Shown here one piece after another: positions 17,572-25,024 of a DNA stretch of 64,000 nucleotides; position 1 is the stretch's first letter, and every line of letters starts with the position of its first letter. This DNA is from an uncultured bacterium (lineage in GTDB: Bacteria > Bacteroidota > Rhodothermia > Rhodothermales > UBA10348), in contig CALSQR010000002.1 in NCBI GenBank assembly GCA_943788505.1, forward strand, positions 1,005,213-1,069,212. The letters are read 5' to 3'. Below the pieces are notes generated by a model that worked only from the letters and a program-made list of their open reading frames with translations, did no database searches and was not told where the DNA came from. The position numbers and the translations under genes were made by a program.

Positions 17572-18543
17572 TCAGTAATTGCTCAGTATCTCTTCGGCCG
17601 CCCGACGGTGAGCATCAACTAGTGATTGGGGTTCAGTGACCCGAACCTCTGCCCCAAATCGGAGCAGCCAGCCTGCGAGATACTCCATATTCTCGAATGG
17701 GAATCGAACGGTCACCTGATCTCCCTGACTATTTTCAGATTCAATTCGTGCTGGGATTCCTGCTCTGACTCTTGGATAGATTGCCGCAGAAAATGCCAAT
17801 TCTACATCGACCGGATCGGACCGGTGTCCTTCTTGTTCGAGGTACGCTTGTAACTCGAACCCTTCCGGCCGATCAAAACGCTCAGTGAGCACGAACATCT
17901 CTTCTATTCTGTCGAGTCTAAAGTTGCGTATCTCATCACGGAGATGATCAAATGCTATCAGATTCCAGTGGTCCGTGTAGTAGACAAGGCCTAGTGGATC
18001 TACTCTTCGCTGCGTCAATTCATTTCGACTGGTGACGAAATACTCCATGATCACCTTTCGGGACCGAGCAACGGCTTCTGAGAGCTTGAACCATTTGCCC
18101 GACTCTACTCCTTCTGATTGGACAGCATGTGTCCAATACGGATCGAGGACTGTGTTTTCGGATAGTCTGTCTACGTAGTCACGGATTTCTGCCGGCAATA
18201 CAGACGTTATTTTGAGGTTAACTGCTCCAGCATCCTCGCGAAGGGAGGCATCTGACTGAAGCTTCATGAACTCAGTGCCCACTAACAGTGTAGCAGCTTC
18301 TCGAGCCGTAAACATTAACGGGGGTAGTTGATACCCCTCCAAGATCTCGTATCCACCGCCTTCGGAATATGTAAGCGGCACCCCTGATTCAGACAAAGCG
18401 CGGAGATCACGGAAAATGGTTCTCCTGCTGACCTCAAAGTGCTCTGCAAGGTCACGGCTCGTCATGTTGGGCCGCGTCTGCAGTAGCAGAATGGTAGCGA
18501 ACAGCCTTTCAGTACGCGTACCATTTTTATCTACCTTCGGCAT
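17572..18543 (-). CDS. WYL-domain transcriptional regulator (YafY/HTH_11 type)
   Basis: A 323-residue regulator. The N-terminal winged helix-turn-helix reads TERLFATILLLQTRPNMTSRDLAEHFEVSRRTIFRDLRALSESGVPL (HTH_11). The central WYL-type domain includes RRVDPLGLVYYTDHWNLIAFD, followed by a WCX-like C-terminal domain with VTVRFPFENMEYLAGWLLRFGAEV. WYL domains sense ligands, often nucleic acids or nucleotides, and control DNA repair, phage defence or metabolic genes. It is the only clear transcription factor in the window and stands alone, with no obvious target next to it. About 200 bases without a gene separate it from mfd. Confidence 0.9.
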   Translation of the reverse strand: MPKVDKNGTRTERLFATILLLQTRPNMTSRDLAEHFEVSRRTIFRDLRALSESGVPLTYSEGGGYEILEGYQLPPLMFTAREAATLLVGTEFMKLQSDASLREDAGAVNLKITSVLPAEIRDYVDRLSENTVLDPYWTHAVQSEGVESGKWFKLSEAVARSRKVIMEYFVTSRNELTQRRVDPLGLVYYTDHWNLIAFDHLRDEIRNFRLDRIEEMFVLTERFDRPEGFELQAYLEQEGHRSDPVDVELAFSAAIYPRVRAGIPARIESENSQGDQVTVRFPFENMEYLAGWLLRFGAEVRVTEPQSLVDAHRRAAEEILSNY

Positions 18544-18605: not shown

Positions 18606-19313
18606 TCACTGTCGTTTCACAACCACGATAATAGATTTGGTAGCAAAGTACGATCCGCTCGCAAAGTCTTTGAGTCGTATGTCTTCTATTTCGACACCAG
18701 GATAGTCGATTTGCAACTGTCCTACTTCCGCCGACAGATCTCCTCCCTTAAGACAAACTAGGCCATCTGGCCATGTTGTACCGGTCGAATCAGAGGGGGT
18801 ATGTTGCCTCGGGGGGGCGGCCATCCGTTCGTGCCATGTCCATAAGTCGGTTAGTGGTGCCGTTGCCCGAGATACCGAACAATGCGCAGATCCGGCGTAT
18901 TCCTCCGCTCTTCCGTGCCACGACGTACAGTTAGAAACCTTCAGTCGACGGCAAAAAAGGTCTATAGAGCGTGTTTTTTTGCTGTTTGAGTCTACAGCCG
19001 TGACCGCAATATCTGGCTGTAGAATTGAGATCGGAATGGCTGGTAGTCCCCCACCAGAGCCCCAATCAACAATTGACGTTCCAGCCATAAATGGACGGAG
19101 ACCAAACGCCAAGCAATGACCTACATGGTGCATTAGAATCCACTCTTCATCCCGCCTAGAAACCAGATTGAACTGTCGATTGACTCTGCGCAGTTCATCA
19201 GCATACGCGAGTAATGTTTCTTCCTTGGCCGTGTCAATAGGTATGTCAAAGGGCCAATTCATGAGCGAGACATGATCTACAGCGTGTGGTAAAGAGAGTT
19301 GTAACAGGTTCAT
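18606..19313 (-). CDS. rsmG: 16S rRNA (guanine-527-N7)-methyltransferase RsmG
   Basis: RsmG (GidB) methylates N7 of G527 in 16S rRNA using S-adenosylmethionine. The 235 residues show the family opening LLAYADELRRVNRQFNLVSRRDEEWILMHHVGHCLA, then the SAM site IVDWGSGGGLPAIPISI, VTAVDSNSKKTRSIDLF, and SVSRATAPL. The C-terminal part is about 20 residues longer than usual. The start at 19313 places the ATG inside a parS site; the Met at 19262 is an alternative start and fits the family N-terminus equally well. It lies downstream of mnmG in the conserved rpmH-rnpA-yidC-mnmE-mnmG-rsmG order. Confidence 0.92.
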   Translation of the reverse strand: MNLLQLSLPHAVDHVSLMNWPFDIPIDTAKEETLLAYADELRRVNRQFNLVSRRDEEWILMHHVGHCLAFGLRPFMAGTSIVDWGSGGGLPAIPISILQPDIAVTAVDSNSKKTRSIDLFCRRLKVSNCTSWHGRAEEYAGSAHCSVSRATAPLTDLWTWHERMAAPPRQHTPSDSTGTTWPDGLVCLKGGDLSAEVGQLQIDYPGVEIEDIRLKDFASGSYFATKSIIVVVKRQ

Positions 19314-19328
19314 GTTTCACGTGAAACA
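19313..19328. other. parS chromosome partition site 1
   Basis: The 16-base sequence TGTTTCACGTGAAACA is an exact match to the bacterial parS consensus bound by ParB. The palindrome extends to 20 bases (19311-19330). ParB-CTP clamps load here to organise the origin region for segregation. It overlaps the predicted rsmG start codon. parA and parB are not in the window. Confidence 0.95.
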
Positions 19329-19356
19329 TGATTATAGGCGATTTGAGCTTTCCCCG

Positions 19357-19372
19357 TGTTTCACGTGAAACA
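19357..19372. other. parS chromosome partition site 2
   Basis: A second perfect TGTTTCACGTGAAACA, extended to an 18-base palindrome (19356-19373), 44 bases from site 1 (centre to centre) and ten bases before the mnmG stop codon. parS sites cluster near the replication origin in most bacteria, so the pair marks this region as probably origin-proximal. Confidence 0.95.
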
Positions 19373-19382
19373 CTGTGCCATA

Positions 19383-21272
19383 CTACGCCTTTCTCGGCGA
19401 CTTTCCGGACTTCATCATCACCATCAATACAGAGACATCAGACGGTGAGACGCCTGAGATCCTAGATGCCTGACCCAGGTTCTCCGGCCGAATACGTTCG
19501 AGCTTTTCTCTGGCTTCCATGGTGATGTTGGTCAGTTTTGCATAGTCAAGGTTATCAGGTAAGCGCAGGGACTCAAGCTGCTCCATTTTAGCAATAAGCT
19601 CGTTTTCCCGCTGGATATAACCCGCGTACTTGAGATCTATCTCTACCATATCAACAACGCTTTCCAAGCCTTCTACCGTTTCTACTAGGTCCTCTTTTCC
19701 CGTCTGATGCAGTAGCTCGGATAAAGAAACCTCTGGTCGAAGGGCGATCTTTGCAATGCGGTCCGTCTGCTTAACAGGCGCGCAACCCAACGACTCTAGC
19801 CAAGGATTTACCTCCTCAGGCGTGACACTTGTGCCGTTTACGCTTGCTGCCATCGAAACACGAGCTTCATGACGTCTTTCCATGCGGCGCAAGCGCTCAT
19901 CACTAACAAGCCCTAGTTCATGTCCAAGACCAGTCAATCGCTCATCCGCATTGTCTTGACGTAGCATCATCCGATGCTCGGCACGTGACGTAAACATGCG
20001 GTACGGCTCATCTGTGCCTTTGGCTACCAAATCGTCAATTAGGACGCCGATATACGCTTGCGATCTCTTTAATATGAGCGGTTCCTCTTCATGAACGTAT
20101 CTAGCTGCGTTTGCCCCCGCAATCAGACCTTGAGCACCTGCCTCCTCATAACCTGTCGTTCCGTTAATCTGTCCAGCAAAAAAGAGTCCTCGAACAGCCT
20201 TCGTTTCAAGTGAATAGCGAAGCTGATAGGGCGGGAAATAATCATACTCGATTGCATAGCCAGGACGTAGCATATGAACGTTTTCCAGCCCTGGTACCAT
20301 TCGAATAGCCTGCATCTGCACATTTTCGGGCAGACTTGTCGAAAAACCGTTTACATAGATCTCATCCGTATTCCATCCCTCAGGCTCAAGGAAAAGCTGA
20401 TGGCGATCTTTATCTGCGAATCGATCAATTTTATCTTCAATGGAGGGACAATACCGGGGGCCGGTGCCCTGAATTCTGCCGACAAACATCGGGCTCTTAT
20501 CGAAACCCGTTCGAAGGAGATCGTGAACTGTTTCATTTGTCCAGGTTAGCCAGCAGCATAGCTGCTTTGACGGAAGCTTATCTGTCATGTAGCTGAACGG
20601 GACGGGTGTTTCATCACCTTTCTGTTCCTCCAGAACATCATAGTTCATGGTTCGCCCATCCAAGCGAGGTGGCGTACCTGTTTTAAGCCTTCCCGACTCC
20701 AATCCAAGGCGATGAAGCGCGCCTGTCAACCCCGTAGAGGCCCCTTCACCCATTCGGCCGCCACCATAGGATCGGTCCCCGATGTGGATCTGGCCGTTCA
20801 TGAATGTGCCGCTCGTAAGGATCACAGCTCTTGCCCGTATTGTCTGGCCAAGTTGTGTAATAACCCCGTCGATACGATCTCCCTCCACAAGTAGATCAAC
20901 TGCCATGTCCGAACGCATAAACAGATTAGGTTGCGCTTCTAGGCGTCGACGAATACTAGCAGCGTACATAAAACGGTCGCACTGCGCTCTCGGTGACCAA
21001 ACAGCTGGACCTTTGCTGCGATTGAGCATTCGAAACTGTAAGCCTGATTCATCTGTGGCTACGCCCATGAGCCCACCTAAAGCATCAATCTCTCTAGCTA
21101 TCTGACCTTTGCCAATGCCGCCAATGGCAGGATTGCATGACATACGGCCGATAGCCTCCAAGCTCATGGTTATAAGAAGTGTTTTTGCACCCATGCGTGC
21201 TGCCGCTGACGCCGCTTCACTTCCGGCGTGCCCGCCACCTACTACTATAATGTCGTAATCGTATTTGGTCAC
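19383..21272 (-). CDS. mnmG: tRNA uridine 5-carboxymethylaminomethyl modification enzyme MnmG
   Basis: MnmG (GidA) works with MnmE to put the carboxymethylaminomethyl group on the wobble uridine 34 of several tRNAs, using FAD, NADH, glycine and methylene-tetrahydrofolate. The 629 residues start with the FAD-binding [21 protein letters not shown], then [23 protein letters not shown], a strongly conserved stretch. Later [17 protein letters not shown] and [21 protein letters not shown], also family signatures. The C-terminal helical domain ([21 protein letters not shown]) binds MnmE and tRNA. Length is normal. The gene is 13 bases downstream of mnmE. Confidence 0.97.
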
Positions 21273-21285
21273 TATTGCTTGTCCG

Positions 21286-22677
21286 TCATTTACCGATGCA
21301 GAATCTGGAAAATATCTGATCCAGGATGTCTTCGTTCGTCACTTCGCCCGTTATAGCGCCAATTTCCTCTACAACAAGCCTAACATCCGATGATAACATG
21401 TCACCAGAAAGTGAGGTTGCCATCGCCATTCTGGCTCTCTCAACTGCTTTCAGTGCCGCCAAAATATGAGATTGTTGGCGCATGCTAGTCACCACCTGAT
21501 GCTCTTCAGCAATATCAGTATCACCTATGGTAAGCTTCGCTATTCTCCTCATTAAACTCTCAACTGCCTCGGTGTCTTTCTCCAATTGCTTTGCTGACAA
21601 CAACACATCATAAAAGGGTAGAACGACATCAATATCCTGACTAGAAAGTTGATCACTCTTGTTACCTACTCGTAGGCGGTTGGCGCTTTCTTTTGCCGAC
21701 GAATTAGTTCCGTGCGTTGCGCCTGCATCAAATGAAGATGCGTCAATTAGCTCAAGGAGTAGATCTGCCGAGGCTTCCGCTGCGTGAGAACGCCGAACCC
21801 CTTCCGCTTCAACAACATTATCTGTTTCTCTGCGGCCTGCCGTATCGACAAACGTATAACGTACGCCGTCATATTCCACGTGGCTTTCAATCTCATCGCG
21901 GGTAGTGCCTGGTATCTCGCTTACAATAGCCCGATCATACCCCAGGAGGGCATTTAGTAGCGTAGACTTTCCAGCATTAGGCTTTCCGACGATGACGACA
22001 CGTATCCCTTGTGCCAGCGCCGTTCCAAACCTGAAAGAACCCGTCATGGATACGAGTTTCGAATGAGCTCCATCCAACAAATCCTGTAAACGTTTTCTGT
22101 CTGCAAAGGCTACGTCTTCCTCACTGAAATCTAATTCCAGCTCAATCAACGTCAGCAAATCCAAAAGATCTTGCCGAATCGAAGAAAGCTCTTCTGAATA
22201 GCGCCCCTTTAGGTGGGATAGTGATACCCTTGAGGCTCGTTCGGACTGGGCGTGGATCAACTCCGCAATTGATTCAGCTTGTGCAAGATCAATCTTGCCG
22301 TTCAAGAACGCCCTCTGTGTAAACTCTCCAGGAGCGGCATGCAAGGCGCCTCGCGCTATCATTAGCCTCAGTACGGCATCAGATGCTACATCGCCACCAT
22401 GACAGGATATTTCTACAACATCTTCCCCTGTTACTGTATTGGGTGCGCGAAAAAGCGTGCACACGACTTGGTCAACTAGACCTGCGTCACCAGAAAGAAA
22501 ACCTACATGCGCCGTGTGGGAGGCCTGCTCGGAAAGAGCTTTACCGTTAAAAACGCTATCAACTAACGGGATCGCGTTGGCTCCAGACAACCGGACAATA
22601 CTTAACGCTGATGCCCCCCGAGGAGTAGCCCGGGCGACGATCGTATCCGATGCGATATCTCCCGTTGCTGTCATCAT
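21286..22677 (-). CDS. mnmE: tRNA modification GTPase MnmE
   Basis: MnmE (TrmE) is the GTPase partner of MnmG. Residues 10-120 form the folate-binding N-terminal domain ([30 protein letters not shown]). The G domain is inserted in a helical domain: P-loop GKPNAGKS (231-238), the switch sequence [16 protein letters not shown], and NKSDQ. The C-terminus ends in FCIGK, the universal C-[ILV]-G-K motif. Length 463 is standard. It starts MMTATGD; the second Met may be used. It follows yidC by nine bases on the minus strand, so they are likely co-transcribed. Confidence 0.97.
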
Positions 22678-22686
22678 CTTGGAAGA

Positions 22687-24498
22687 TCAACCACGGGGCT
22701 TGCGTTTGCCCGTGATAGCACCCCGTTTGCTCTTGTCCTTAGCTGATGCCGTAGCCTTCTTTTTCTCTTTGGCTGCGGGCTTCATCTCCTCGGGATGATC
22801 GTGGACCTGCTTATTTATAAACTTCTGCTGTACAGCAGTTAACACATTATAGCAGAGATAATACAGGTTCAGTCCAGCGGCCAACTTATTGAAGATCACG
22901 AAGATCATCACCGGAAAAACATAGGTGAAGATCTTAGCCTGGGCATTTGACTGATTCGTCATCGACAACTTCATCTGGAAGACCATCGATATTCCCATCA
23001 ACAGCGTAAAACCCGCCACTCCAGCTCCATACATCGGTATTTCGAAGGGTAGATCGATAATAAAATCTGGTGCTGAAAGGTCAGAGGCCCACAGAAAACC
23101 CTGTCCGCGTAACTCAATTGCTTGTGGGAGGAACTGCCACAAGGCGATAATGACCGGGTACTGAAGGAGCATGGGTAGACACCCGCCCAGCGGATTGACC
23201 CCCGTCTCCTTGTACATCTTCATCATCGCCTCCTGCTGCTTCTGCGGATTATCCGCGTGCTTCTCCTTAATCACCTCCATACGTGGCTGTAGCTCACGCA
23301 TTTTGGCCATGCTCTTAAAGGAGGTCTTTGTCAGTGGGTATAGAACCAGCTTGATCAAAAACGCCAGAATGATGATTACAAGCCCGTAACTGGGAATAAT
23401 CGCTGCGAGGTAGGTAAAGGCCGGGATAAAAACGAATCGAGCTAAAGGGCGGGTAATGATCTCAAAGAAGTCCCATCCAAAATCTACCATGTTGTAGAGA
23501 TCGAGGTCGTAATCATTGAGATTGCCATAAATCATTGGCCCCATATACAGGGTGAATTGATCGGGCTCAGCGGCCGCAGGTGGCATCTGGAGCATGGCTA
23601 CGTAATCGTGCCGACCATATGCTTCGGAGACCTCGCCAACACGCTCTCCTATCAATTCAGCGCCACGGGAAGTAGTCTGCGGCATCATCACGACAGTGAA
23701 ATACTTGTTCTTGACCGCTACCCAGTCAACCTCGCCACGTAATGATTGCTCAACATAAGCGTCGCTTGCAAGCATCACCTCCTCTACGGACCCTCCGCTT
23801 CGAGCATAGGCTCCCGTTCGCTGAGCTGCTGTTTCATGATCTCGTTCTGAGAAAGGAACGCCTCCGTTCCAGGCCAACTCGTACCCCTCTCTTGTAGAAA
23901 ACGCCGAAGCGTTAGACTGATCAATGCTTAATCCAACTTCGTAACTCTCTGGCTGAAACGTATAAACAAGAACAATAGACCCGTCACCAACTGCCGTTTT
24001 CATTCGCACCGTCACCGGTGCATCGCCCACGGTGATCGTTCCTTCACGGGCATCACTTTCGAAAAGGAACGCTCGCGTGTCGTAATTCCGGTTACCTGGA
24101 GAGGTGAATAAAACGCCTAATGCACCACCTTTAGTGGTGTCAACCAGCTGGACGGCATAGTCCGTGCCCGAGACGTTGTAGTCTTTAAGCTCAAATGAGG
24201 TGAACGTCCCGCCACGAGTTGACAGAACAGCACGATAGAGGCTGTTTTCAATCGTTATCTCTCGGGAATCCCCAGTAAGACCGCGAACAAACGTGCTGTC
24301 GTCTGCTGCAAGAGCCTGCACTGCACCGATTTCAGGATCACCTTGCTCAACAAAATCAGATGAGTTGTCTAGCTCGGAAGTCTCGCCGACGACGGGTAAT
24401 TCCGTGCCAGGTTCAGGGGGTTGGGGGGCCAGCCATGTCAGCCAGACCACCATGATAATGGCGATCAGCACTGTCGCTGTGATGACATTTCTATCCAA
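22687..24498 (-). CDS. yidC: Membrane protein insertase YidC
   Basis: YidC inserts and folds inner-membrane proteins, alone or with Sec. The 603 residues show an N-terminal helix (NVITATVLIAIIMVVWLTWLA), a large periplasmic beta domain (about 60-330, including VRGLTGDSREITIENSLYRAVLSTRGG), and the conserved C-terminal core of five helices with GLVIIILAFLIKLVLYPLTKTSFKSMAKM, PRMEVIKEKHADNPQKQQEAMMKMYKETGVNPLGGCLPMLLQYPV, and KLAAGLNLYYLCYNVLTAVQQ. The last residues are Lys/Arg-rich, as expected for ribosome contact. yidD, often between rnpA and yidC, is absent: only 85 bases lie there. Confidence 0.96.
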   Translation of the reverse strand: MDRNVITATVLIAIIMVVWLTWLAPQPPEPGTELPVVGETSELDNSSDFVEQGDPEIGAVQALAADDSTFVRGLTGDSREITIENSLYRAVLSTRGGTFTSFELKDYNVSGTDYAVQLVDTTKGGALGVLFTSPGNRNYDTRAFLFESDAREGTITVGDAPVTVRMKTAVGDGSIVLVYTFQPESYEVGLSIDQSNASAFSTREGYELAWNGGVPFSERDHETAAQRTGAYARSGGSVEEVMLASDAYVEQSLRGEVDWVAVKNKYFTVVMMPQTTSRGAELIGERVGEVSEAYGRHDYVAMLQMPPAAAEPDQFTLYMGPMIYGNLNDYDLDLYNMVDFGWDFFEIITRPLARFVFIPAFTYLAAIIPSYGLVIIILAFLIKLVLYPLTKTSFKSMAKMRELQPRMEVIKEKHADNPQKQQEAMMKMYKETGVNPLGGCLPMLLQYPVIIALWQFLPQAIELRGQGFLWASDLSAPDFIIDLPFEIPMYGAGVAGFTLLMGISMVFQMKLSMTNQSNAQAKIFTYVFPVMIFVIFNKLAAGLNLYYLCYNVLTAVQQKFINKQVHDHPEEMKPAAKEKKKATASAKDKSKRGAITGKRKPRG

Positions 24499-24583: not shown

Positions 24584-25024
24584 TTAGATCCCGTCCGTAG
24601 CCATTCCTGACCGCTCTAACTTTCGGATGACCTGCACAGTGTCTCTCAGAATAGTGTCAGAACCTTCATCCCGACCCTGGAAAAGAAACATTGCCGTGAG
24701 GCGCTCTCCCTTTCTTGCTGCCAATCGCTCCAGGTCTATCTGATTATGTCGGATTGCCTCGCGCATCATGCGCTTCACTCTGTTTCGCCGAGGTGCATGA
24801 CCGCGGCTACGACCGACAGCGACACCAACTTGGTAAGCCTCATCAAACGTTGACGTAGGTACAAAGCGATACGCTATTCTGACACACCCAACCCGAACGC
24901 TATTGCTCGAGGGATCGGACCGGTCGAACAATGGTTCGATCAGTCGTTTCCGCTTTAGGTGACGGGATCTCGGAAACGTTAGGCGGTCAGAACCCGGACC
25001 GGAGAGTGAATCGGCTCCGTCCAT
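24584..25024 (-). CDS. rnpA: Ribonuclease P protein component
   Basis: RnpA is the small basic protein that helps the RnpB RNA trim the 5' leader of tRNA precursors. The 146 residues contain the start LTFPRSRHLKRKRLIEPLF, the KRNxR-type RNA-binding motif as VAVGRSRGHAPRRNRVKRMMREAIRHN, and the family's central strand. A longer N-terminus (about 15 residues) precedes the typical start. The gene begins eight bases after the rpmH stop, which is the classic rpmH-rnpA order. Family function is firmly known; assignment is from motif and position. Confidence 0.94.
   Translation of the reverse strand: MDGADSLSGPGSDRLTFPRSRHLKRKRLIEPLFDRSDPSSNSVRVGCVRIAYRFVPTSTFDEAYQVGVAVGRSRGHAPRRNRVKRMMREAIRHNQIDLERLAARKGERLTAMFLFQGRDEGSDTILRDTVQVIRKLERSGMATDGI

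Follow-up and report, generated by a model that had tools for sequence, protein, structure and literature searches.

Two 16-bp palindromes in the spacer between mnmG and rsmG of an uncultured Rhodothermales bacterium are true parS sites, and they are very probably (a probability of roughly 0.94) the centromere sites of a chromosomal ParABS system. This reading is based on the motif, its uniqueness in the genome, its conservation in relatives, its proximity to the replication origin, the presence of the partition genes and the contact residues of ParB. The sites were found in a 64,000-bp stretch of DNA (the window; C2:1005213-1069212) from a genome of 2,754,935 bp in two contigs, C1 and C2. The pair looks ordinary but solid, with true sites near the origin at a conserved position. 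It fixes the origin region and the centromere of this uncultured Rhodothermales genome, and the analysis also corrects the likely start of rsmG.

The parS pair in the mnmG-rsmG spacer

The features of the window were as follows (window positions).

18606-19262, minus strand: rsmG (gidB), 16S rRNA G527 N7-methyltransferase (PF02527, 88.5 bits, above cut-off)
19263-19382, minus strand: spacer of 120 bp from the mnmG stop to the likely rsmG start (ORF ends), with both parS sites inside
19313-19328, no strand: parS site 1, TGTTTCACGTGAAACA, rsmG-proximal, exact match; the perfect palindrome is 22 bp here
19357-19372, no strand: parS site 2, TGTTTCACGTGAAACA, mnmG-proximal, exact match; the perfect palindrome is 18 bp
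19383-21272, minus strand: mnmG (gidA; TIGR00136, 843 bits)
21286-22677, minus strand: mnmE (trmE), co-oriented with mnmG and upstream of it (TIGR00450, 353.5 bits, above cut-off)
22687-24498, minus strand: yidC (TIGR03592, 209.5 bits, above cut-off)
24584-25024, minus strand: rnpA-like gene (TIGR00188, 27.1 bits, under the 38.35 cut-off), a weak call supported by its position
61356 (C2:1,066,568), no strand: minimum of cumulative (G-C) over C2:900,001-1,165,000, a coarse origin estimate

The sites start 44 bp apart, as the initial annotation had claimed, and the gap between them is 28 bp. They are the only exact copies of TGTTTCACGTGAAACA in the whole genome, where the next-best match had 2 mismatches and a reversed control pattern had 0 exact matches. 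Shuffled versions of the window gave a mean of 0.32 matches with up to 3 mismatches allowed, compared to 0 mismatches in each member of the real pair. The 16-bp TGTTNCACGTGNAACA palindrome, which is the defining trait of chromosomal ParABS parS, is present in these two exact copies, and the parS consensus used in PMC10197239 is the exact motif of both.

On the minus strand the order is yidC, mnmE, mnmG, the parS pair and rsmG. The yidC and rnpA-like genes presumably belong to the usual origin-region gene block. RsmG scored 83.5 bits against TIGR00138, under the cut-off of 99.5, as was also the case in most relatives. Downstream of rsmG, the gene at 17572-18543 contained an HTH-like stretch with a profile score under the cut-off, followed by a long plus-strand ORF that, read from its sequence, we take to be mfd. 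The closest relatives of MnmG (76-83% identity) came from MAGs assigned to Rhodothermales, Bacteroidetes or an unclassified bacterium.

The evidence that settles the pair beyond chance doubt is its retention in relatives. An alignment of the spacer from the window genome and six genomes of the same genus (n = 7) revealed spacers of 120-269 bp (141-269 bp, as cut, in the relatives), in which the only invariant blocks were the two parS sites. Site 2 was invariant at 16/16 positions and site 1 at 15/16, with one relative carrying a C for the first T. The search for rsmG was extended to 26 genomes of the family, four of which had no rsmG match. Of 23 places, three were dropped, one because the contig ended before the junction (L143) and two because tblastn gave no RsmG match (L144 and L145). 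In each of the 20 family loci that retained rsmG together with the DNA upstream of it, that upstream DNA carried parS with no more than 1 mismatch, and mnmG could also be seen in 19 of these loci. Likewise, the site followed mnmG in 11 of 12 close relatives (L071-L082, many being the same genomes as in the family search), the twelfth ending before the junction.

Sampling the order and class more widely (30 diverse genomes), we found a site, allowing up to 2 mismatches, at the mnmG-rsmG gap or within ~250 bp of it in 13. For some other families in this order, rsmG and its closest site were 5-8 kb apart. The position of rsmG was known in 11 of the 13 other genomes for which parS-parB distances were compiled (see below), and a site was at most 8.3 kb away in all 11. 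Phylum-wide, no site with at most 2 mismatches was found at the 30 best-scoring rsmG loci, not a random sample, of 198 genomes searched, and mnmG was beside rsmG in only one of these 30. A parS-bearing mnmG-rsmG junction is thus unsupported as a trait of the phylum.

Origin proximity and the remote parAB genes

The GC skew supports a chromosome origin near the parS pair, as the initial annotation had thought probable. In 20-kb samples of C2, skew was negative in 11 of 12 samples left of 1.0 Mb and positive in 6/6 right of 1.069 Mb. The skew minimum lay ~42 kb from the nearer parS site, or 1.5% of the genome, so that the skew check proposed along with that annotation came out in its favor. On C1, skew was positive in the four samples taken within the first 320 kb and negative in each of the 12 from 400 kb onward; the opposite switch is near C1:315 kb. 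When reversed C1 was joined to C2 the skew was continuous, with arms of ~1.37 and ~1.38 Mb, and equal arms with continuous skew are what an origin and a terminus should give. The best dnaA (C2:1,136,511-1,138,019) was 112 kb (4.1%) from the pair. From 1.066 to 1.13 Mb the skew curve is shallow, so the origin can be placed only to within some tens of kb. The parB and dnaA matches of the genome, and the parA adjacent to parB, were all outside the window, consistent with the earlier remark that these genes are absent from it.

A scan for DnaA boxes in the window and in C2:900,001-1,165,000 found no convincing oriC. The window held 11 TTATCCACA-like sites, compared to 11.2 in shuffles, i.e., no excess. 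Over the 265 kb of C2:900,001-1,165,000 there was one cluster of three DnaA-box-like sites and none in 5 shuffles. This cluster (C2:989,765; L114 9765-9801) is upstream of an mraZ-like gene, between it and a CTP synthase-like gene (gene names by eye), and was rejected as oriC, being 77 kb from the skew minimum. DnaA may control the cell-wall gene cluster from here, or the sites may be a candidate origin element. The genome encodes two full-length DnaA proteins, 46% identical to each other (L005, C2:1,136,493-1,138,043; L006, C1:1,145,920-1,147,446), each with an N-terminal, an ATPase and a DNA-binding domain. Of 27 genomes of the family, 25 had two or more DnaA matches, whereas the seven f3 genomes had one each.

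Profile searches found one ParB in the genome. Its gene overlaps that of ParA at C2:564,465-566,239 (parA, L004 521-1369; parB, L004 1366-2295); a DUF5683 gene (L004 2305-2946) follows directly. ParB scored 174.9 bits against TIGR00180 (cut-off 58.45) and had the Pfam domains ParB_N, HTH_ParB and ParB_C, and ParA was assigned to AAA_31. ParB proteins form CTP clamps at parS, as established for other members of the family, and the GERR and ENVQRE motifs visible in this ParB are presumably the clamp motifs. According to PMC7383237, R173 and G201 belong to the set of residues that fixes preference for parS; counted on the alignment, the equivalent residues here were R and G. Seven of the eight parS-contact residues named there matched, the exception being S172, which is N, and the four specificity positions were R, F, R and G. 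SMC (1023 bits) and ScpA (105 bits) were also present. Together, ParA, ParB, SMC and ScpA make up a ParABS-SMC set, so that the pair may be interpreted as its centromere.

The following course of binding, clamp loading and segregation, and the reason given for where the sites lie, are inferred. ParB from the single parAB operon would bind each palindrome as a dimer, close as a CTP clamp and slide outward, forming a partition complex that ParA would move once the nearby origin has replicated. The complex would probably also load SMC-ScpAB. The mnmG-rsmG spacer is probably the inherited origin-proximal location of parS in this lineage and not a location serving rsmG regulation. Counting against the ParABS reading are the separation of parAB from parS, the lack of a convincing oriC in the scanned region and the occurrence of the junction site in only 13 of the 30 diverse genomes from the wider class.

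Compared with Spo0J/parS of Bacillus subtilis and ParB/parS of Caulobacter, the likeness includes the 16-bp motif, which is identical, occurs more than once and lies near the origin, along with a ParB with parS-contact residues, ParA, SMC and ScpA. However, parAB is in the origin region in those systems, whereas here parB is 459 kb (16.7% of the genome) from the parS pair and 571 kb (20.7%) from dnaA, and parAB is ~500 kb from the skew minimum. The textbook origin cluster is gidA-gidB-parA-parB. The adjacent mnmG and rsmG, with parS in the neighborhood, resemble that cluster, but parA-parB are located elsewhere, followed by the DUF5683 gene, instead of after rsmG.

PMC7022226 states that par operons are usually within the 20% of the chromosome around oriC, so the separation found here is an exception to that rule; the par operon is outside this ori domain, placement within which is a usual trait and not a strictly defining one. 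The distance from parS to the best dnaA was 0.6-8.3% of the chromosome in 14/14 Rhodothermia genomes, the window genome included, and that from parB to parS was 10.8-37% in 14/14 of the same-contig set. The compilation was restricted to genomes in which a single contig holds both parS and parB, and the sizes of the other genomes were rounded. G042, which belongs to the same genus as G028 and has parB ~495 kb from dnaA, was not included in it. Among the matches listed, and using the best-scoring dnaA, 17 of 18 same-contig dnaA-parB pairs were at least 342 kb apart. No parS match was obtained in G037, G056 or G063, and in G063 parB was only ~155 kb from dnaA, counter to the trend. The separation of parAB from parS therefore seems to be lineage-wide, with G063 as the counter-case.

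Titles and abstracts retrieved for Rhodothermales, Salinibacter, Bacteroidetes and the ori domain contained no report of this separation in Rhodothermia, an older survey aside, and the available main text of PMC6315104 does not mention gidA or gidB. The remote parAB is the one point where a specialist might pause. It can help to ask whether segregation requires parAB and parS to be as close together as usual or whether that closeness is only historical.

The rsmG start and alternative roles of the sites

The initial annotation had one site covering the start codon of rsmG and offered Met 19262 as an alternative start. The overlap turned out to be a single base, the A at 19313, shared by site 1 and the minus-strand ATG at 19313-19311. 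In three of the six same-genus relatives (L134, L140 and L141) the rsmG frame is interrupted by a stop 8-12 codons before the equivalent of Met 19262, making a 17-codon extension of rsmG impossible there. The stretch between parS and Met 19262 was unconserved among these relatives, and all six had a Met codon at the equivalent of Met 19262 or at most 4 codons off, followed by a W-P-F motif. Start positions and in-frame stops in relatives thus favor the alternative that had been offered, and Met 19262 is most likely the start of rsmG, which would make both parS sites intergenic. It is very unlikely that the unconserved ATG at 19313 is the true start, with parS having evolved as an element of the start region, although the rsmG frame is open from 19313 in the ORF list. 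In L125 and L137, from another genus, parS falls within the rsmG reading frame, where it might be translated as an N-terminal MFHVKH; later start codons are also present in both, leaving a start at MFHVKH uncertain.

Repression of rsmG by ParB through its start codon, also proposed in the initial annotation, loses its footing with that single-base overlap. A broader form, in which the pair also regulates, with ParB loaded in the spacer lowering rsmG transcription or translation and coupling modification of 16S rRNA to the segregation or dosage of the origin, is unlikely. It would agree with the position of the sites just upstream of rsmG in every family locus and has a precedent in Pseudomonas aeruginosa, where two genes preceded by intergenic parS are repressed by ParB; these are among the exceptions to transcriptional effects of chromosomal ParB that are mostly small, local effects being small or nil in B. 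subtilis, Vibrio cholerae and (mostly) Streptococcus pneumoniae (PMC7022226). The RNA of the spacer also folds better than shuffles (z -2.36), but twin palindromes fold necessarily, and the fold was set aside as functional evidence. No promoter-like or terminator-like site was found within the mnmG-rsmG spacer, regional counts being not above those of shuffles, and the distance of 5-8 kb between rsmG and the nearest site in some other families also argues against regulation. Weak repression of rsmG by ParB would nevertheless be compatible with these analyses. A related scenario for the Rhodothermia, slightly less likely still, is that the centromere stayed by mnmG-rsmG, with parAB 0.39-1.0 Mb off, and that ParB loading in the spacer was kept as it also tunes rsmG. 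If true, 16S rRNA modification would follow origin replication and segregation.

The palindromes could alternatively be sites for Noc or another regulator and not parS, which is very improbable. Noc/NBS nucleoid occlusion in Firmicutes involves a related protein family, and the ParB scored 242.5 bits against the Noc model, yet this is below the cut-off of 315. The Noc system differs by its DNA site and specificity residues: Noc/NBS is recognized by the NBS motif and the residues Q/K/K/R, whereas the sites here match the parS consensus exactly and ParB has R and G where Noc has Q and R.

Bases flanking parS in relatives

Some parS sites in relatives are enclosed by perfect palindromes of 28-34 bp (L042 1501-1516, L075/L141 and L077/L132). 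In L042 a T run follows the palindrome, making parS the stem of a terminator-like hairpin. Palindromes reaching at least 4 bases further per side were found in 5 of 59 distinct contexts. Across the 59 exact parS contexts in the relatives' loci, a C never preceded the site and a G never followed it (0/59 each). An A before and a T after were favored, in counts that are non-independent as the sites come from related genomes. This flanking-base bias suggests that parS of the Rhodothermia class may have an 18-bp preference.
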